The notes beneath the pieces are model-generated. The model saw nothing but the letters and a program-made list of their open reading frames with translations, was not told the origin of the DNA and ran no database searches. From Pacificibacter marinus (GTDB lineage Bacteria > Pseudomonadota > Alphaproteobacteria > Rhodobacterales > Rhodobacteraceae), in contig NZ_JAHKPK010000017.1 of assembly GCF_018860665.1 (NCBI RefSeq), positions 62,001 through 126,000 on the forward strand: a stretch of 64,000 bases of DNA, given 5' to 3'. The position numbers were made by a program, and so were the translations under genes. The number at the start of each line of letters is the position of its first letter. Position 1 is the first letter of the stretch. Of the stretch, positions 1,103 through 11,428 are shown piece by piece.

Positions 1103-1204
1103 GCCAAAGAGGCTGGCTTTGCACTGACTTTGGGACTAAGTCTGTTTGATATTCATAATGCGGCACATCAAGTTTTGTATCCGCTGAAATTGAGGTTCAA
1201 ACAG

Positions 1205-2128
1205 GTGTCTGACAATTTGTCACGGGCCAACGATTGCCCCAAGCGTTTTGTGTTTTTAGGGGCTTCTGGGCGCATAGGTCATCTTTTGCGGTCGATATGG
1301 CCAGACATCACCGCCTCTGATTTGCGCGTTGATTGGCAGTTTAGATCCGCACAGCCCACCATTCCGAATGCGCTTGTCTGGTCCGATTTGGCCACATTAG
1401 AGCCATTTTTAGATCATGCAAAATCTGTTGGTGGCTTGGATGGGCTTTTTGTTTTTTTGGGGGCCTCGCGTACTGGTGATAAGGCAGACGCCGATCAAAT
1501 GGCGATCAATGTCTCGCTTGTGGACCAAGCCTTGAAGGCTTCCGTCGCTGCCGAAATTCCTCGCATTCTCATCGCCTCGTCATCTGCCGTTTATGGCGGG
1601 GGGGAGGGGGTGCCTTTTGATGAGAGCAGTGCCTTACATCCGGTAAATGCATACGGGATGGCCAAGCGAGATATGGAAGCTCTGTGTCTCTCGCGCGCGG
1701 CGGACTATGGTATCGAAGTTTGCTTGCTGCGTATCGGCAATGTCGCGGGCGCGGATGCCTTGCTTGGGCCCACTGAAGGGTGGCAGTCAGGTGACGCGCC
1801 AAGGTTGCTTGATATATTTCCAGACGGAGACGGGCCGCGCAGATCATATATTGGACCTGAAAGCCTAGCGGATGTCCTTAGGTGTCTGGCGTTGCAGTCA
1901 CAGCCTTTGCCGCAGGTGATCAATGTCGCGGCACCTGTGAGTGTTTCTATGAAGGCGTTGTTGGATGCTGCAGGCGTCGATTGGAAACCGCGTCCTGTTC
2001 CCGCGTCGCCTTTGCAAGACATTGTGTTGGATTGCGCGCGCTTGGCAACTTTGTCTGATATCAAGGTCTCAGACGGTGCAGCAAATGTTCTTGTTGCACA
2101 GTGGCGCCGCGCCTTGGAGGTTCTATGA
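1205..2128 (+). CDS. NAD-dependent epimerase/dehydratase (extended SDR)
   Basis: An SDR-type nucleotide-sugar enzyme of about 307 residues, with the NAD-binding GASGRIG motif at 19-25 and a catalytic Ser plus YGMAK (Tyr150, Lys154). I place the start at GTG 1205 because a GAGG sits about 8 nt upstream and the Rossmann fold begins shortly after; a TTG at 1130 in the same frame would add 25 unsupported residues. The stop overlaps the sugar-transferase ATG (ATGA), so the two are translationally coupled. The probable role is modifying the nucleotide sugar loaded by the next protein. The exact substrate cannot be read from sequence. Confidence 0.85.
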   Translation: MSDNLSRANDCPKRFVFLGASGRIGHLLRSIWPDITASDLRVDWQFRSAQPTIPNALVWSDLATLEPFLDHAKSVGGLDGLFVFLGASRTGDKADADQMAINVSLVDQALKASVAAEIPRILIASSSAVYGGGEGVPFDESSALHPVNAYGMAKRDMEALCLSRAADYGIEVCLLRIGNVAGADALLGPTEGWQSGDAPRLLDIFPDGDGPRRSYIGPESLADVLRCLALQSQPLPQVINVAAPVSVSMKALLDAAGVDWKPRPVPASPLQDIVLDCARLATLSDIKVSDGAANVLVAQWRRALEVL

Positions 2129-2736
2129 CGATAGGGAAAAGGTTATTTGATGTGGTCTTGGCACTGATTTTGTCGATTCTTCTGGGAGGGGTGATTATCG
2201 GGTTGGCTCTTGTAATTTTGATAAAAGAGGGTCGCCCAGTTTTTTATCTTTCGGAACGGATGAAGACTCCAACCCATGGATTTAGGCTGATCAAGTTTCG
2301 CACGATGAAGGTCGTCGCGCACGATAGCGGCGTCTCAGGGGGCGACAAAATCAATCGCGTCACGCCGTTTGGCCGCTTTTTGCGCAGGGCGCGTTTGGAC
2401 GAGTTGCCTCAACTTTGGAATGTATTGCGCGGGGATATTTCATTTGTGGGACCGCGTCCGCCTTTGCGTGAATATGTCGAGCGATTTCCCCAAATCTATG
2501 CGCAGGTGCTGATCACGCGCCCTGGTATAACGGGGCTGGCGTCCGTGCGATATCATGCCCACGAAGAAATGCTGTTGGCGCGTTGTACAACGGCGAAGCA
2601 GACGGACGAGATCTATGCGCGGGCCTGTGTTCCCCGCAAGGCACGCTTGGATTTGATTTATCAAGCCCACCAATCTAGGTGCTTTGATCTGCGTATTATG
2701 ATTGAAACCATTTGGCCGAAATTACGAAAGTTTTAA
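2125..2736 (+). CDS. Initiating sugar phosphotransferase (monotopic phosphoglycosyl transferase)
   Basis: This 203-residue protein belongs to the bacterial sugar transferase family (PF02397). It transfers a sugar-1-phosphate from a nucleotide sugar to undecaprenyl phosphate, starting repeat-unit assembly for exopolysaccharide, capsule or O-antigen. It has an N-terminal hydrophobic segment (about 9-32), the KFRTM motif, the catalytic Asp-Glu dyad in RARLDELPQLWN (D92, E93) and FVGPRP. Being short, it is the PglC-like catalytic core without the large WbaP/WcaJ membrane domain. It overlaps the upstream epimerase stop by 4 bp. The 160-bp AT-rich gap downstream separates it from the CapD-type gene. 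Confidence 0.92.
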   Translation: MTIGKRLFDVVLALILSILLGGVIIGLALVILIKEGRPVFYLSERMKTPTHGFRLIKFRTMKVVAHDSGVSGGDKINRVTPFGRFLRRARLDELPQLWNVLRGDISFVGPRPPLREYVERFPQIYAQVLITRPGITGLASVRYHAHEEMLLARCTTAKQTDEIYARACVPRKARLDLIYQAHQSRCFDLRIMIETIWPKLRKF

Positions 2737-2896: not shown

Positions 2897-3970
2897 ATGT
2901 TAATACAGGGTCTGACGACGTTACCAAGACATGTAGTGCGCGGCATCTTGGTGCTTTCAGATACGTTTTTGATCATAGCTTCTGTGTTTCTGGCGTTTAC
3001 TTTGCAAGGTGATCTCGCCAAGTTGTTGACGCCTTTATTTGCATACGTATTCATCCTTGAAATGACGCTCATAGGCGCCGCGATCGTGATGCGCTTAAAG
3101 CTTCACTGCATCAAACTTGTGATGTTCAATTCCAAAGATGTATCCAAAATCGCGATTGCAGCAGGGTGTTTGAGTCTGCTTTTTGCAACATGTGCGGCCT
3201 TGCAAGGGGTGACCGGATTGGTCGCCAAAACGCTCATTTTTGGGACTGCATTCTTTTCTGGAAGCGTTGGCGCGCGCGCTGCGATGATTGCGATTTTATC
3301 TTATATGCGTGATCGAAATTCAAACCGCCAGTCTGTCGCTATTTTTGGAGCGGGCGGCGCAGGCATTCAATTGGCATCGGCTTTGCGCCAGTCTCACGTC
3401 ATGCGGCCGGTGATCTTTTTCGATGATAATCTACACTTGCAAGGTATGGCTATCGGCGGCATTCCCGTACTAGATGCAAAGCGGATGAAAGCCAGTTTGG
3501 CGTATCACAAGATTGAGATGGTTTTGATTGCGCTGCCCGAAAGTGCAAAAGAACGACGCGCTGTAATCATTGAACAATTAGAGCGGATTGGTGTCAAAGT
3601 GAGGGCTCTACCCCCTTTCGTTGATATGCTGGCTGGGCGCGGCAATGAGGCCTTGTTCCGAACTGTTGGCGCTGACGAAATTTTGGGCCGTGATGCCGTC
3701 GATTTGGAAACTCCTGAAATTGCTAAAACATATGCTGGACGTGTCGTGATGGTGACGGGGGCTGGCGGGTCAATCGGTTCCGAATTATGCCGCCAAATTC
3801 TAAACTGTCGCCCAGCAAAGATCGTTTTGTTCGATCAAAGTGAATTCAATCTTTATCAAATCGATTTCGAATTGCGTGACCTTGCTGCGCAACACAAGGT
3901 TCAGCTCTCGACATATTTGGGGTCTGTGACCGACCCCGTGAGAGTGCGCCATGTTTTGACGCAAGAATGA
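2897..3970 (+). CDS. CapD/WbpM-type nucleotide-sugar dehydratase, N-terminal fragment (gene split by duplication)
   Basis: This is the first half of a membrane-bound polysaccharide biosynthesis protein that normally exceeds 600 residues. It has N-terminal transmembrane segments (residues about 11-110), a first Rossmann domain (FGAGGAG) and the NAD-binding motif VTGAGGSIGSE of the catalytic domain. Reading ends early at TGA 3968-3970 because an exact 29-bp tandem duplication (3939-3996) shifts the frame. Removing one copy restores a continuous 631-residue protein. The fragment keeps the cofactor motif but lacks the catalytic Lys region. As it stands the protein is probably inactive unless it complements with the downstream half. 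Confidence 0.88.
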   Translation: MLIQGLTTLPRHVVRGILVLSDTFLIIASVFLAFTLQGDLAKLLTPLFAYVFILEMTLIGAAIVMRLKLHCIKLVMFNSKDVSKIAIAAGCLSLLFATCAALQGVTGLVAKTLIFGTAFFSGSVGARAAMIAILSYMRDRNSNRQSVAIFGAGGAGIQLASALRQSHVMRPVIFFDDNLHLQGMAIGGIPVLDAKRMKASLAYHKIEMVLIALPESAKERRAVIIEQLERIGVKVRALPPFVDMLAGRGNEALFRTVGADEILGRDAVDLETPEIAKTYAGRVVMVTGAGGSIGSELCRQILNCRPAKIVLFDQSEFNLYQIDFELRDLAAQHKVQLSTYLGSVTDPVRVRHVLTQE

Positions 3971-3996
3971 GAGTGCGCCATGTTTTGACGCAAGAA
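3939..3996. repeat. Exact 29-bp tandem duplication inside a coding region
   Basis: Bases 3939-3967 and 3968-3996 are identical. The unit starts TGAGAGTGCG and ends ACGCAAGAA. Since 29 is not a multiple of 3, the duplication shifts the frame and introduces TGA at 3968-3970. The junction also creates ATG at 3967, giving an ATGA overlap between the two resulting reading frames. Deleting one unit restores the reading DPVRVRHVLTQENVEII. Confidence 0.97.
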
Positions 3997-4821
3997 AATG
4001 TTGAAATTATTTTCCATGCGGCGGCTTATAAACATGTCCCAATCGTTGAGGGAAACGAATTAGAGGGGGCAAAGAACAATGTCATTGGCACCAAGGTTGT
4101 TGCTGAAGCGGCGGCTGAGGCCAATATCGAACGCTTTATTTTAGTCTCTACGGATAAAGCGGTAAGGCCCACCAATATTATGGGGGCAACGAAACGTATG
4201 GCTGAGTTGGTCGTGCAGGATTTGCAAACACGCGAACCACAGGTAAAGTTTTCCATGGTGCGTTTTGGCAATGTCTTGGGGTCGTCTGGATCGGTGTTGC
4301 CCCTCTTTCAAACACAGATCGAGGCTGGCGGTCCCGTGACTGTCACTCACCAAGAAGTCTCGCGGTTCTTTATGACGATTTCCGAAGCGGCGCGATTGGT
4401 TTTATTGGCGGGGGCCTATGCTGAAGGCGGTGATGTCTTCGTTCTTGATATGGGCAAACCACAAAAAATCATGGATATCGCGCATCGAATGATCGAACTC
4501 TCTGGACGCACAGTTAAAACGCCCGGCTCAGCAGAAGGCGATATCGAAATTATCGTGACTGGGTTGCGCCCCGGTGAGAAGCTTTATGAAGAACTTTTAC
4601 TAGATCACGACAATTTATGCGGGACACCCAACCCAAAAATTCTGCGTGCAGAAGAGGCCATGCTTGGACCGTCAGAGGTCGCTAGCATGTTGCGTGAACT
4701 CAACGTCGCGATCAAAACCGCCAATGCGGCACATTTGCGTAAAGTCGTGCGCGAACGCGTTGACGGATATCACGAACCGCAGGGGGCCCCAGCACAGCAA
4801 TATCAAGTGGATGAGATCTAG
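3967..4821 (+). CDS. CapD/WbpM-type nucleotide-sugar dehydratase, C-terminal fragment
   Basis: This is the second half of the split UDP-GlcNAc 4,6-dehydratase-type gene. It carries the catalytic part (STDKAVRPTN, then MGATKRMAE with the likely catalytic Lys) and the conserved FGNVLGSSGSV and GLRPGEKLYEELL motifs, but lacks the GxxGxxG dinucleotide motif left in the upstream fragment. The first nine residues after Met repeat the end of the upstream frame because of the duplication. Translation could restart at ATG 3967, which overlaps the upstream TGA, though no good ribosome site precedes it. Whether the two halves assemble is unknown. Confidence 0.85.
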   Translation: MRVRHVLTQENVEIIFHAAAYKHVPIVEGNELEGAKNNVIGTKVVAEAAAEANIERFILVSTDKAVRPTNIMGATKRMAELVVQDLQTREPQVKFSMVRFGNVLGSSGSVLPLFQTQIEAGGPVTVTHQEVSRFFMTISEAARLVLLAGAYAEGGDVFVLDMGKPQKIMDIAHRMIELSGRTVKTPGSAEGDIEIIVTGLRPGEKLYEELLLDHDNLCGTPNPKILRAEEAMLGPSEVASMLRELNVAIKTANAAHLRKVVRERVDGYHEPQGAPAQQYQVDEI

Positions 4822-5066: not shown

Positions 5067-7175
5067 GTGTCTTTGAAGCTTAAAAAAAATGTGTTTGGCC
5101 TTGGTTTTGCGGCCATGTGTTTTGTATCCACAAGTTCGGCTCAAGACCTGTCAACGACGCGCCTGAATGTGATGGGGCGTCAAGGAATCGTTGAAATGCC
5201 GACCGCAGAAGTTGCGCCGGACGGGCAGCTTGCTCTTAGCTATTCGAAATTCGGAAAGATCAGCCGCACGACATTGACCTTTCAGATCACGCCACGCCTA
5301 TCTGGCAGCTTTCGGTATTCTGGCATTGAGGACTATAGCGAGTCATTCGACACCTATTGGGATCGCTCATTTGATCTAAGCTACTTGTTGATGAACGAGG
5401 GCGCATACCGTCCCGCTGTCTCTGTTGGCCTACAAGATTTCATGGGAACAGGATTACTGAGTGGCGAGTATGTCGTCGCGACCAAATCGATTGGCGATAA
5501 GCTGCGGGTGACTGGTGGCTTGGGCTGGGGCCGACTGGGCAGTTACAGCCCGCTTGGATTTTCGTTTGGCGAACGCGATACGTCATTCATCGAAACTGGC
5601 GGGACACTTAACTTTGGTCAATGGTTTCAGGGTGAGGCAGCTGTCTTCGGCGGTCTGAGCTATCAGTTGAACGAAAAAATGACATTATTGGCTGAGTACT
5701 CGTCGGACGCCTATACCAAAGAGGTCGAACAAGACGTGTTCACCCACAAATCCCCGATCAATGTCGCTCTTGATTACAAACTCGGTCAAAACACATCCGT
5801 CACAGCATTCTTTTTACATGGCGATGCTGTTGGGTTGCAATTTTCAACGGGGCTCAACCCGAAAAACCCGAAGGTGGCGGGCGGGATCGAAACTGCGCCA
5901 CTTCCCATCCGTCCTCGACCAAGTCGCTCGGCTGACCCTATTGGTTGGTCCGGTGAGTGGGTCGCTGAAGTTGGCGATGCTAGTGGCATTCGGTCTGCTT
6001 TGGCAAAGGCCATGGCGGATGAAGGCCTGGCGCTTGAAGCTATGTCTTTGACGACAACACGGACAGAAGTGCAGTTCCGCAATGAACGCTATGGCGCTCA
6101 TTCACAAGCTTTAGGGCGTTTGGCACGAATCATGACGCGGGCTTTCCCGCCATCTGTTGAGACATTCGTTTTGACCGAAACGCTTGATGGCGTTCCTATT
6201 CATTCAACGGTGCTACCGCGTTCCAAATTGGAAGCCTACGAATTCTCCCCTGCGCGCAGCATGCTGGATGCCGCGACATTTACCGATCCACTCAGCTTGC
6301 AGGGTGATAATTTGGTCGCACATGAAGGCGCCTTTCCAAATACGCTTTGGTCAGTAGCACCTTATGTGGCTGTTTCGGTTTTCGATCCGCACAGCCCAAT
6401 ACGTTTGGACTATGGTGTTCGAGGGCAAATCAACTATGAAATGGCCCCTGGTCTCACACTTGACGCGGCAGCGACCTTGCGTGTTTCAGGTGACATCTCG
6501 GAAGAAGAAGATGATTATGATGATTCCAATATACCGCATGTGAGAACGAGTTCGCGCGAATATGATAACCGTGTACAGCTCGAAAAACTGACGGCGAATT
6601 GGTACAGTCGGCCTGCCCAAAACGTGTTTGGTCGTTTGACGGTTGGCTATCTTGAATCTATGTACGGCGGTGTCTCAGCCGAGGTGCTTTGGAAGAAACC
6701 GAGCAGTCCCTTCGCTTTGGGGGCAGAGCTTAACTACGCCGTTCAGCGTGATTTTGAAGAGACCTTTGGCTTTCGCGATTATGATATCGTGACAGGGCAT
6801 GTGTCGGCTTACTACGCCTTTGAAGGTGGGTTTCATGGGCAACTTGATGTGGGCCGGTATCTTGCTGGCGATTGGGGGGCAACGGTGTCTGTCGATCGAG
6901 AGTTTAACAATGGCTGGCGTGTTGGGGCTTATGCGACTCTTACGGATGTACCATTCGAAGATTTTGGTGAAGGGTCTTTTGATAAAGGCATTCGTATCAC
7001 TGTGCCATCGGCGTGGTTTGCTGGAACGCCAACGACAGAAACAAATGATTTCGTTATCCAATCTTTGACCCGTGATGGTGGTGCCAAGCTGAATGTCGAC
7101 GGTCGACTGTATGACCGCGTGCGTGGGATGCAAGGCGCAGAAATCGAGTCACGTTGGGGGAAGTTTTGGAGATGA
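5067..7175 (+). CDS. YjbH-family outer-membrane exopolysaccharide protein
   Basis: A 702-residue exported protein with a signal peptide cleaved near SSA-QD (about residue 26). It shows the YjbH (DUF940) start region NVMGRQGIVEMPTAEVAPDG and long stretches of alternating aromatic and polar beta-strands, as expected for an outer-membrane barrel. YjbH proteins are linked to exopolysaccharide export or modification in E. coli (the yjbEFGH operon). The start is GTG 5067 after a GGGTGGA ribosome site. An acidic run (EEEDDYDDSN) sits near residue 475. The downstream YjbF-like lipoprotein overlaps by ATGA, so the two are made together. Homologues of YjbE and YjbG are not present nearby. Confidence 0.88.
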   Translation: MSLKLKKNVFGLGFAAMCFVSTSSAQDLSTTRLNVMGRQGIVEMPTAEVAPDGQLALSYSKFGKISRTTLTFQITPRLSGSFRYSGIEDYSESFDTYWDRSFDLSYLLMNEGAYRPAVSVGLQDFMGTGLLSGEYVVATKSIGDKLRVTGGLGWGRLGSYSPLGFSFGERDTSFIETGGTLNFGQWFQGEAAVFGGLSYQLNEKMTLLAEYSSDAYTKEVEQDVFTHKSPINVALDYKLGQNTSVTAFFLHGDAVGLQFSTGLNPKNPKVAGGIETAPLPIRPRPSRSADPIGWSGEWVAEVGDASGIRSALAKAMADEGLALEAMSLTTTRTEVQFRNERYGAHSQALGRLARIMTRAFPPSVETFVLTETLDGVPIHSTVLPRSKLEAYEFSPARSMLDAATFTDPLSLQGDNLVAHEGAFPNTLWSVAPYVAVSVFDPHSPIRLDYGVRGQINYEMAPGLTLDAAATLRVSGDISEEEDDYDDSNIPHVRTSSREYDNRVQLEKLTANWYSRPAQNVFGRLTVGYLESMYGGVSAEVLWKKPSSPFALGAELNYAVQRDFEETFGFRDYDIVTGHVSAYYAFEGGFHGQLDVGRYLAGDWGATVSVDREFNNGWRVGAYATLTDVPFEDFGEGSFDKGIRITVPSAWFAGTPTTETNDFVIQSLTRDGGAKLNVDGRLYDRVRGMQGAEIESRWGKFWR

Positions 7176-7879
7176 GCATATTTAATCAATACGCTGCAAA
7201 ACTGATGTCAGCTTGTGTTGTTTGCCTGTCTCTTGCTGCTTGCGGCAATGACGTTCAGGCGCGCCGTGGCGCGGATACAGTTAAGGAGTTGGCTGTTCTT
7301 GCCAAGTCGCGTCTGTTGGGTGGAAAAGCCGTACCTGCCGCGCCTGCGGATCCCGTTGAGATGATCGACTACGCTTTGCGGGCTGTTCCTGATGCGCCGT
7401 TACAATTCATCTTGATGGAAAAAAGTGGCGGATTTGCTGTGTCGACCGTTCAGGGGGTGAATGGCCGGAATGTGACGTGGATTTCTCCTGATCAAAAGTC
7501 GATCACACTGAAGACGGGTTTGTTGACGGCGACACGCGGCTTTGGCGGTGATGTCATGTCCGTTGAACAGGGCGGCGCTGAGCGACTCGTATCTGGGCAT
7601 AGATCAGGACAAGTGCAAAAGACCTATCGATTTTTGAATGGTTCGGACCAGACCGGACGGTTCGTCGTCAATTGTAATGTTGTCGTAGGCGGTACGGATC
7701 ACGTTTCATCGGGTGAAATATCTGCGACGACGCGCGTGATGACGGAATCTTGTCAGTCCGAGGGCGGCACTGAATTCACAAATACCTATTGGGTAGACAC
7801 GTCTGGACGTATGGTTCAATCTGTCCAGTGGGCAGGTCCTGATGTTGGCACAATCGTCTTTCGGCGCCTCCGCTTTTAG
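7172..7879 (+). CDS. YjbF-family outer-membrane lipoprotein
   Basis: A 235-residue lipoprotein with a lipobox-type signal (CLSLAACGND; Cys about residue 20). ATG 7172 overlaps the yjbH stop, which is the YjbF/YjbH order known from E. coli. The body contains Trp/Gly-rich beta structure and Cys residues (VVNCNV, ESCQSEGG) compatible with a disulfide. It is presumed to act with YjbH in polysaccharide secretion. The family call rests on context plus general resemblance. A hairpin terminator follows at 7915-7943. Confidence 0.78.
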   Translation: MSIFNQYAAKLMSACVVCLSLAACGNDVQARRGADTVKELAVLAKSRLLGGKAVPAAPADPVEMIDYALRAVPDAPLQFILMEKSGGFAVSTVQGVNGRNVTWISPDQKSITLKTGLLTATRGFGGDVMSVEQGGAERLVSGHRSGQVQKTYRFLNGSDQTGRFVVNCNVVVGGTDHVSSGEISATTRVMTESCQSEGGTEFTNTYWVDTSGRMVQSVQWAGPDVGTIVFRRLRF

Positions 7880-8541: not shown

Positions 8542-9744
8542 ATGATCAAAGGTCTGATCTGGCTTATCGTTGCGTATAGCCTCAGTCAATTCTATCGTGC
8601 ATGTCTTGCCGTTTTCGCGCCCGTTTTGAAAACCGAAATTGGTTTGCAAGCCGATCAAGTGTCAACAGCATTGGGGATTTGGTTTCTCATTTTTGCAGCC
8701 ATGCAGATCCCTGTAGGTTGGCTGTTGGATCATCGATCGCCGCGTAAATTCGCATCAATTTTGTTGGCAATTGGTGGCGGTGGCGGCGCATTGGTTTTTG
8801 CCATGGCTCAAGGACCTTGGGGCATTTACATCGCGATGGCGTTGATTGGAATCGGGTGTTCGCCAGTGCTTATGCTATCCCTTTATATTTTTGCCCGTAG
8901 CGCACCCGCCGATCGTTTCGGGACCTTGGCGGGACTTGTTGTTGGACTGGGGTCGCTTGGCAATCTTGCAGCCTCCGTGCCGTTGTCATGGGCGATGGCG
9001 CTCATCGGATGGCGGGGGGCGTGTTTGGTCTTGGCTGGAATAACGGTTTTCGTTGCATTGGCGCTGAGCAGATTCGTACAAGACCCCCCCGCAGTAGATC
9101 ATTCCAAAACAGAAGGTGGCACAGGGTTGCGCGATCTTTTAAAAATCTGGTCGTTGTATCCAGTCTTGGCGATGGCAGCAGTGGCCTATGCCCCAGCTGC
9201 GGGGTTACGCGGCAGCTGGGCGGGAGGCTACTTGTCCGATGTGTATGGCCTGACGTCCGACGGTATTGGTCGTGTGACATTTTTCATGGCTTTGTCGATG
9301 ATTGCTGGCGCACTTGCATTTGGCCCGTTGGACCGGATCATCCGCAGTCGAAAACGTATCGTAGTGATTGGAACTTTGGCTGCGTTGGTTTGTCTTGTCG
9401 TACTTTGGGTCGGCGCAGGATCACAAAGCGTTTGGCAGATTTCGGCTTTGCTGGTTGGTGTTGGCTTTTTTTGTTCAGCTTACGGTCAGATTATGAACCA
9501 CGGACGGACACTTGTTCCTGCGCATCTTACGGGGCGTGGAGTGTCGTTGATAAATTTATTTTCCATCGGAGGTGTTGGTGTGTCTCAAATCGTAACCGCC
9601 CGCCTCTTTCGAGCAACCCTCACAGATGACGCGACGCCTTATCTGGGATACACATCTGTGTTCGCATTCTTTTCCCTCGCGTTGGTCGTGGGGACAGTAA
9701 TCTATTTGTTCAGCTCTGACACTATAAGTAAGTCCAATACATGA
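8542..9744 (+). CDS. Major facilitator superfamily transporter
   Basis: A 400-residue protein with about 12 hydrophobic segments and the MFS loop motif between helices 2 and 3 (GWLLDHRSPRK, matching GxLaDrxGrk). It is an inner-membrane secondary transporter with unknown substrate. The start ATG at 8542 follows an AAAGGATTT ribosome site. Its stop overlaps the next start (ATGA), and the following two genes encode glycan-type enzymes. A role in moving a sugar-linked compound, or in self-resistance, is possible but not demonstrated. Confidence 0.85.
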   Translation: MIKGLIWLIVAYSLSQFYRACLAVFAPVLKTEIGLQADQVSTALGIWFLIFAAMQIPVGWLLDHRSPRKFASILLAIGGGGGALVFAMAQGPWGIYIAMALIGIGCSPVLMLSLYIFARSAPADRFGTLAGLVVGLGSLGNLAASVPLSWAMALIGWRGACLVLAGITVFVALALSRFVQDPPAVDHSKTEGGTGLRDLLKIWSLYPVLAMAAVAYAPAAGLRGSWAGGYLSDVYGLTSDGIGRVTFFMALSMIAGALAFGPLDRIIRSRKRIVVIGTLAALVCLVVLWVGAGSQSVWQISALLVGVGFFCSAYGQIMNHGRTLVPAHLTGRGVSLINLFSIGGVGVSQIVTARLFRATLTDDATPYLGYTSVFAFFSLALVVGTVIYLFSSDTISKSNT

Positions 9745-10802
9745 CCAATTCGCAAACTGCTCCGATCAACGTTGTTCTAATGAATGACACATCCTCGCGG
9801 TATCATCATGGCTGTGCGTTGGTGATGCGTAATTTGCGTGATGGATTGGAGACGCGAGGATGTACGATTTTAGCGACGTCATATGCGCGTCATGATTGGC
9901 AGAATGATCCTAGTTTTATCGCTACACTGAAGGACGCGCATTTGGTTGTCGTGAACGGTGAAGGCACGCTGCATCATGGCAAAGATGCTGGGGCGGCACT
10001 CTTGAAAATCGTAGACCGCCCTGAGCTGAGCGAGACGCCCGTTGCGCTGGTGAATGCCCTTTACGAAGCCAATCCGGATGAATGGGGTCGGTGGCTGTCT
10101 AAATTTAGGATTTGTGCTGCACGCGATAGTGTTTCACTGGCTGCAATGGAAACAGATATTTCGCATGCCGTTTCTAAACCTGATTTGATGTGGTTGCCTG
10201 ATTTGTCGATGGCGCAAGGTGCGCGGCCAGTTGGCGGCCAACGTTCAGGGATTATCGTCGGGGATAGTGTGAAATGGAATCGTCGGCGTGACTTGGTACG
10301 ATTGACGCGGCGACTGAAACTGGATCAGTTCATTCCGACAAAGACCCTCAGGTCGCGAGTTTGGCATATGCCTGTTGTGCGGCACCTATTGTACTGTGTT
10401 TACAACGGTGTGCTGCAATTTAATCAACCGCGATTTACCATGTCGTCCGATACCGAGGCGTATTTGGCGCAATTGGCAGCATGTGAAGGTCATATCACTG
10501 GAAGGTTCCATGCGGTCTGCCTGTCGATGATAACGCGCACTCCTTTTCTCGCTCTATCGTCTAACGCTTCAAAAATTGAACGCTTGCTGCAAGATGTGGG
10601 TCTTGGCACTGATCGGCTTGTGCGGCCTGATCAACTCACCTCTTTGACACGTGCGGATATCGTTCGGCCATTTTCAGACCAAGAAACGCAAGCGATAGAT
10701 GCCTTTTTAGAGCGAGCGAGCCGAGAATCTGATGCATTGTTCGATGGATTGGCAGACTTGGCAGGCGGGAAACTGAATTTGGACAATGAGGAACAAAAAT
10801 GA
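9741..10802 (+). CDS. Polysaccharide pyruvyl transferase family protein
   Basis: A 353-residue soluble protein of PF04230. The family is seen in the N-terminal Rossmann-like half with LVVVNGEGTLHH (about 73-84) and the C-terminal half with ITGRFHAVCLSM and SSNASKIERLL, motifs shared with CsaB and ExoV/AmsJ-type enzymes. Members add ketal-linked pyruvate from phosphoenolpyruvate to sugars, though some have other glycosyltransferase-like roles. It overlaps by 4 bp with both the MFS gene upstream and the GT29 gene downstream, forming a coupled three-gene operon. Confidence 0.85.
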   Translation: MTNSQTAPINVVLMNDTSSRYHHGCALVMRNLRDGLETRGCTILATSYARHDWQNDPSFIATLKDAHLVVVNGEGTLHHGKDAGAALLKIVDRPELSETPVALVNALYEANPDEWGRWLSKFRICAARDSVSLAAMETDISHAVSKPDLMWLPDLSMAQGARPVGGQRSGIIVGDSVKWNRRRDLVRLTRRLKLDQFIPTKTLRSRVWHMPVVRHLLYCVYNGVLQFNQPRFTMSSDTEAYLAQLAACEGHITGRFHAVCLSMITRTPFLALSSNASKIERLLQDVGLGTDRLVRPDQLTSLTRADIVRPFSDQETQAIDAFLERASRESDALFDGLADLAGGKLNLDNEEQK

Positions 10803-11428
10803 GGTTGTTGTTTGCAAAGCTCAGGAATGACGAAGCCTACCTGACTAGGCATGCGTGCCTCATCGATGGATTAAGTGCGAAGCTAAAAGGCAGGCGGGTT
10901 GCCATTATAGGGAACGCACGCGCGCTTGGCAGAGTTGGCGCTGATAAAGGCTACGGAGCAAGCATTGACGCCTGTGATATTGTTATCAGATTGAATTCTG
11001 CGCCTATGCCCTCGTTTGAAAGTCATGGACACAAAACGACTATGATTGCGATGTCGACGCCAGTTGCTCAATCTGTACTGGAACAGCGTGAGCCGGAAAT
11101 GGTGCTTTGGATGACACCAAAACGAAAACGCTTACCTCGCAGGTTGATTGCGCTTGGTGAACAGTTCTTTTTGTATCCCGCCGCTCGCAATGCAGCGTTG
11201 GCGCACCGTCTTGGAGGCCGGCCGACAACGGGCGCAATGGTGATTGATCTCGTTTCCCAAAGTGACGCTGGAACAATAGAACTGTTTGGTTTTGATTTCT
11301 TTTCCAGTCTATCTTTGTCGGGGCGTCGCGACGCGCGTGAGGTGAAACACGATTTTGATGCAGAAGCGCAATATGTCAGTGAGCTTGTGAAAACAGACCC
11401 ACGGATCACACTTCACCCTATGGAATAA
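10799..11428 (+). CDS. Glycosyltransferase family 29 (sialyltransferase-fold) protein
   Basis: A 209-residue soluble protein resembling the GT29 catalytic domain. A sialylmotif-L-like stretch (VAIIGNARALG, then GYGASIDACDIVIRLNSAP) matches the (V)GNS..YG..ID..D.V.R.N.AP pattern. A motif-S-like stretch is RPTTGAMVIDL with ELFGFDFF, and a terminal HDFDAE fits the His/Glu of motif VS. There is no transmembrane anchor, unlike the eukaryotic Golgi enzymes, so it should act in the cytoplasm. GT29 enzymes use CMP-linked nonulosonic acids. No CMP-sialic acid synthesis genes are in the window, so donor and acceptor are unknown. It is the last gene of the MFS/pyruvyl-transferase operon. Confidence 0.8.
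   Translation: MRLLFAKLRNDEAYLTRHACLIDGLSAKLKGRRVAIIGNARALGRVGADKGYGASIDACDIVIRLNSAPMPSFESHGHKTTMIAMSTPVAQSVLEQREPEMVLWMTPKRKRLPRRLIALGEQFFLYPAARNAALAHRLGGRPTTGAMVIDLVSQSDAGTIELFGFDFFSSLSLSGRRDAREVKHDFDAEAQYVSELVKTDPRITLHPME

Follow-up and report, generated by a model that had tools for sequence, protein, structure and literature searches.

The window, as we call the whole 64-kb stretch of DNA analysed here, carries near its start a run of genes on the forward strand, whose features and coordinates are compiled in Table 1. Two of the reading frames in this run, of 357 and 284 amino acids, overlap by the four bases ATGA at 3967-3970, the TGA (3968-3970) ending the first frame and the ATG (3967) starting the second, and the overlap falls at the junction of two identical, directly adjacent 29-bp copies. 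The dehydratase encoded by these frames and its neighbours, i.e., an epimerase, a sugar transferase and two proteins of the YjbH and YjbF/GfcB families, appear to form a locus for surface polysaccharide. Epimerase, transferase and dehydratase follow one another in an order resembling that of wbpV-wbpL-wbpM in Pseudomonas aeruginosa. Roles in the addition of D-QuiNAc are described for WbpV and WbpL (PMC4773840). The epimerase found nothing above an NCBIfam cut-off and its PDB matches were weak; since it has no specific assignment, the sugar product can only be put as presumably of the QuiNAc or bacillosamine type. Further along, window positions 10799-11428 match GT29 (E 6e-11), a sialyltransferase family mostly known from animals and plants, and adjoin a polysaccharide pyruvyl transferase gene (9741-10802).

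Table 1 Features of the split dehydratase gene and its surroundings (window positions)
Feature	Position	Strand	Evidence
NAD-dependent epimerase/dehydratase, same operon-like run	1130..2128	+	Pfam Epimerase
Bacterial sugar transferase (initiating phosphoglycosyltransferase type)	2101..2736	+	Pfam Bac_transf, E 3e-49
N part of WbpM/PglF/CapD-type dehydratase	2897..3970	+	Pfam CoA_binding_3, Polysacc_synt_2 1-74; PDB 3nkl, PglF/WlaL 2-80
Inverted repeat, 6-bp stem, GGGGTC..GACCCC, one base from the duplication	3919..3937	+	
First of the two 29-bp copies	3939..3967	+	Letters, TRF, genome-wide 29-mer search
C part of the same dehydratase: remaining NAD-binding domain and presumed substrate/catalytic region (STDKAVRPTNIMGATKR)	3967..4821	+	Pfam, PglF/WlaL
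Second of the two 29-bp copies; its first bases form the stop codon TGA of the first frame	3968..3996	+	Letters, TRF
YjbH exopolysaccharide protein	5067..7175	+	Pfam YjbH, E 6e-200
YjbF/GfcB lipoprotein (group 4 capsule type)	7154..7879	+	Pfam YjbF, E 1e-27

According to Pfam, the N part is composed of a CoA_binding_3-type domain followed by positions 1-74 of Polysacc_synt_2, and the C part covers positions 68-292 of the latter (E 1.4e-94), the halves thus being consecutive on PF02719. In the PDB search, the N part matches entry 3nkl and residues 2-80 of PglF/WlaL, and the C part residues 96-295 of the same chain (E 1.6e-63), which puts the break point between PglF/WlaL-equivalent residues about 80 and 96, within the NAD-binding domain; a locus of Celeribacter ethanolicus (L003) covers residues 3-308 of the chain in one piece. 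The PDB entry in question, 5bju, is titled WlaL, which we take to be PglF, and we assume that WbpM belongs to the same family. The membrane region of the N part is assigned from the family, the glycine-rich motif of the NAD-binding domain presumably lies in the N part, and the stretch STDKAVRPTNIMGATKR of the C part is presumed to be catalytic. When the two halves were searched separately against 33 relative loci (two of which, L003 and L098, are apparently one record), they fell into one reading frame in 32; in these 32, the duplicated peptide is where homology to the C half begins, and homology to the N half reaches its end or comes close to it. Because the Pfam and WlaL matches of the halves are consecutive, the gene is best read as a WbpM/PglF-type dehydratase cut inside its NAD-binding domain, and, judged by sequence, the two frames are the N and C parts of one membrane UDP-GlcNAc 4,6-dehydratase, in agreement with an earlier note on this DNA, which had described them as the halves of a CapD/WbpM-type enzyme. 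PglF/WlaL and WbpM, membrane UDP-GlcNAc 4,6-dehydratases of the same sequence family, are single intact proteins, whereas the gene studied here has the Polysacc_synt_2 domain after a long N-terminal part distributed over two frames (2897-3970 and 3967-4821) in place of one continuous frame.

The tandem itself was reported by TRF with a period of 29, 2.0 copies and a match of 100% over 3939-3996; the identity of the copies and the TGA/ATG overlap at their junction are as the earlier note had described them. The number of exact 29-bp tandems expected in 64 kb is about 2e-13 (equal base frequencies), which excludes a chance origin. In a search of the whole 3.89-Mb assembly allowing at most three mismatches the 29-mer had no second place, and viral_contigs gave 0 exact matches to it. 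A scan for exact tandems with units of 8-600, applied to 454,050 bases (the window plus 20 further stretches, together about 12% of the genome), yielded three with a unit of at least 12 (29, 36 and 15), and the 29-bp tandem is the sole one of these whose unit is not a multiple of three. The 36-bp tandem, located at L142 14972-15043 near the end of a 15,088-bp contig, appears by eye to be a glycine-rich coding repeat. An exact tandem inside a coding frame that breaks the frame, as found in the dehydratase gene, is what characterizes a spontaneous tandem-duplication mutant of the pneumococcal cap3A type. Its junctions share 0 bases on either side (no microhomology), so that slippage between pre-existing short repeats offers no explanation for its origin. 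The adjacent inverted repeat is a possible but unproven aid to the duplication, and its position may be due to chance, since the window contains 122 inverted repeats with 6-bp stems (about 1.9 per kb); fill-in of staggered breaks might have been another route. A transposon footprint was rejected, as 29 bp exceeds the usual length of transposon target duplications and no element remains.

The search for the gene in relatives comprised 61 genomes, the own genome included, of which 42 gave a match at E 1e-40. The C half was detected at this threshold in 17 of 19 congeners and the N half in the same 17, and in 16 of these gene-bearing congeners the frame is unbroken and measures 631-675 codons from stop to stop. 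The earlier note gives 631 residues for the joined protein. All 17 have a single copy at the site of the duplication, and in none of them does the site contain an exact tandem repeat of at least 7 bp. The nearest relative, G010, is 90% identical in the N half and 92% in the C half, and its alignment to the own sequence (3,852 columns, 84.5% identity, 561 substitutions) contains the 29-bp stretch as the sole gap within the gene; four further gaps, in which the own sequence is longer by 4 and 1 and that of G010 by 1 and 1, all lie outside the gene. The single copy of G010 differs from the 29-bp unit at one of 29 bases, where both own copies carry the own letter, and the flanks differ at 1 of the 60 bases before and at 9 of the 60 bases after the site. 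The seventeenth gene-bearing congener, G018, whose locus L088 (reverse strand) is the exception among the 33 relative loci, is frameshifted elsewhere in the gene: around rc position 1320, a short run of G within the glycine-rich NAD-binding motif is affected, either by a lesion of independent origin or by a slip in sequencing. In addition, 297 plasmid records match the dehydratase at E 1e-60, most often from Rhizobium (123) and Phaeobacter (58), and of its ten best plasmid relatives, nine are from Sulfitobacter and one is from Octadecabacter.

Across the wider family, a match at E 1e-80 was obtained in 200 of 394 genomes, and frame lengths were taken from the best 150 matches (149 genomes, G303 occurring twice). 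Among these, 6 of the 149 other than the own have frames below 600: three run off contig ends (G255, G220, G169), one has no detectable N-terminal part (G184), and two are frameshifted in the N-terminal part, which is split over two frames (G313 at L159 and G025 at L163), with no exact tandem of at least 7 bp in the gene of either. None of these six relatives, nor G018, is broken at the place of the duplication (a second, 365-codon match of G022 was left out). A penicillin-binding protein gene serving as control showed no frame under 676 among the 150 matches listed. A stop inside the match occurred in one dehydratase (G028) and two control matches (G214, G301), all of which have full-length frames. 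An excess of breakage in the dehydratase family was considered and dropped, the difference of two frameshifts to none in the control among the listed matches not being significant (p 0.50).

The age of the lesion can be approached from codon changes, for which the halves were kept apart and the duplicated codons left out. Relative to G010, dN/dS is 0.11 for the N half and 0.09 for the C half. Polarization of 72 sites with two outgroups assigned 8 replacement and 26 silent changes to the own lineage, compared with 23 and 15 to the lineage of G010 (p 0.002); as the frame of G010 is unbroken, this measure is noisy and is not itself a read-out of function. The codon changes of the own lineage give no sign of decay, and neither the frames nor the G010 alignment revealed any additional stop or gap that would break the frame of the gene. 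The identity of the two copies alone bounds their divergence only at about 10%. Probably, the gene was in use through most of the history of the lineage, and either the lesion is recent or use was not abolished; codon constraint would look alike if the gene were still used via switching or as a working split enzyme. Of the options listed in the earlier note, a fresh mutation is the one best supported by the single copy in 17 congeners, the identical copies and the constrained codons of the own lineage.

We consider it probable that a recent duplication private to this lineage splits the only WbpM/PglF-type dehydratase gene of the draft genome, with the enzyme most likely being inactive. "Private" refers to the genomes searched, and with one genome for the own species, fixation throughout the species fits equally well. 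The 29-bp duplication shifts the frame and cuts the gene into two fragments, neither of which holds a complete NAD-binding domain; in this scenario, enzyme activity would most likely be abolished, and the surface polysaccharide dependent on the sugar it supplies would be lost or changed; such a loss may have been selected, for example by phage or by laboratory growth. Loss of wbpV and other genes can confer resistance to the P. aeruginosa phage K8 (PMC4773840), and phage selection might likewise account for the lesion described here. The genome contains six matches to PF02719, namely the two halves, one of 103 bits and three of 26-52 bits; this search found no second WbpM-type gene in the assembly, which as a draft of 65 contigs is 95.3% complete, so that a second gene in a missing stretch is possible. 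The 103-bit match (L165, G000 contig C27) is only distantly related and adjoins a gene of the NeuB family; together with that synthase, this dehydratase perhaps serves a sugar of the sialic or legionaminic type.

An assembly error, in which case the chromosome would in reality be single-copy at this site, is unlikely. The genome is a draft of 65 contigs, the copies are perfect, and 29 is an odd, k-mer-like length; against this, the site lies deep within a 188,729-bp contig (at 65,939), and in the 454,050 sampled bases of the own genome (about 12%) no second duplication of similar size is out of frame, for which reason a systematic assembly fault was rejected. Moreover, usual short reads are longer than the 58 bp of both copies, and repeats of this kind tend to be collapsed by assemblers, not expanded. 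In 917,117 bases of other bacteria (80 loci, L001-L080; units of 15-300) one 7-bp array was the only find.

The earlier note had also raised the possibility of a reversible on/off switch, in which the second copy would be gained and lost at a useful rate in a mixed population, as in pneumococcal capsule variants; we regard this, too, as improbable. Surface polysaccharide genes are common targets of such variation, and slippage may in principle remove one of two exact tandem copies. A phase-variable contingency locus is recognized by a repeat tract kept in relatives with varying copy number, yet the 17 gene-bearing congeners are single-copy, and because none of them has the repeat, the sequences do not support an evolved switch. 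The shared bases that would provide a built-in tract favouring duplication are lacking at the junctions as well, and the assembly shows one state only, although assemblies usually show just one. What stands of the proposal is that chance reversal by slippage would be possible in principle. A variant of it, according to which the lineage may switch its polysaccharide de novo via the 29-bp copy, with no pre-set repeat, as bet-hedging against phages, seems quite improbable.

Precedents for such events have been described in several bacteria. Reversible alterations of phcA in Ralstonia solanacearum by short tandem duplication were reportedly found by Poussier in 2003. In the pneumococcus, spontaneous and reversible tandem duplications are reported for the capsule genes cap3A, cap8E (wchA) and tts (Waite et al. 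2001, 2003, cited in PMC4243769 and PMC4022640), and for inserts of at most nine bp a reversion of about 1e-5 at most is given (PMC4022640). The likeness consists in a polysaccharide synthesis gene losing its expression through an internal duplication; reversible phase variation is reported for the pneumococcus, whereas here one assembled state is seen, in an unrelated marine bacterium and in a different enzyme. Tandem duplications of 26-116 bp in lrp of an insect pathogen (PMC6786866) are, like those in phcA, short, of similar size, spontaneous and gene-inactivating, but both genes encode regulators and not a sugar enzyme. A frame-breaking, sometimes reversible mutation of spontaneous origin is also described for the capsule gene kpsC of Escherichia coli with group 3 capsule (PMC13410964), where the lesion is a homopolymer frameshift rather than a duplication and is thus nearer to that of G018 than to the 29-bp case.

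A working split enzyme, with ATGA-coupled translation and reassembly of the halves as suggested in the earlier note, is very improbable: the classic four-base overlap and the otherwise intact halves speak for it, but the duplication creates the overlap automatically, the cut lies within the NAD-binding domain, none of the short-frame relatives examined (six and G018) breaks at this place, and Shine-Dalgarno pairing before the ATG at 3967 amounts to -0.6 kcal/mol compared with -4.5 for the start of the N part, although the sugar transferase start at 2101, which overlaps the preceding gene, also lacks pairing (+1.2 kcal/mol), so that weak pairing may still allow translation and cannot by itself rule it out for the second frame. 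Programmed frameshifting was discarded, since by eye no usual slippery sequence is present at the junction.

A recent inactivating duplication being the preferred reading, the kind of mutation, a short tandem duplication that breaks a polysaccharide gene, is already known, and the present case adds one more. If real, it would show cleanly, in a free-living marine bacterium, how a surface-sugar gene is naturally broken by a short out-of-frame duplication whose copies are still identical. It also illustrates that a four-base stop/start overlap can arise from a single duplication and is then not to be taken as a sign of a designed gene pair. Together with the two frameshifts in the wider family, whose excess over the control is not significant, the frameshift of G018 hints that the enzyme may sometimes be dispensable or selected against.
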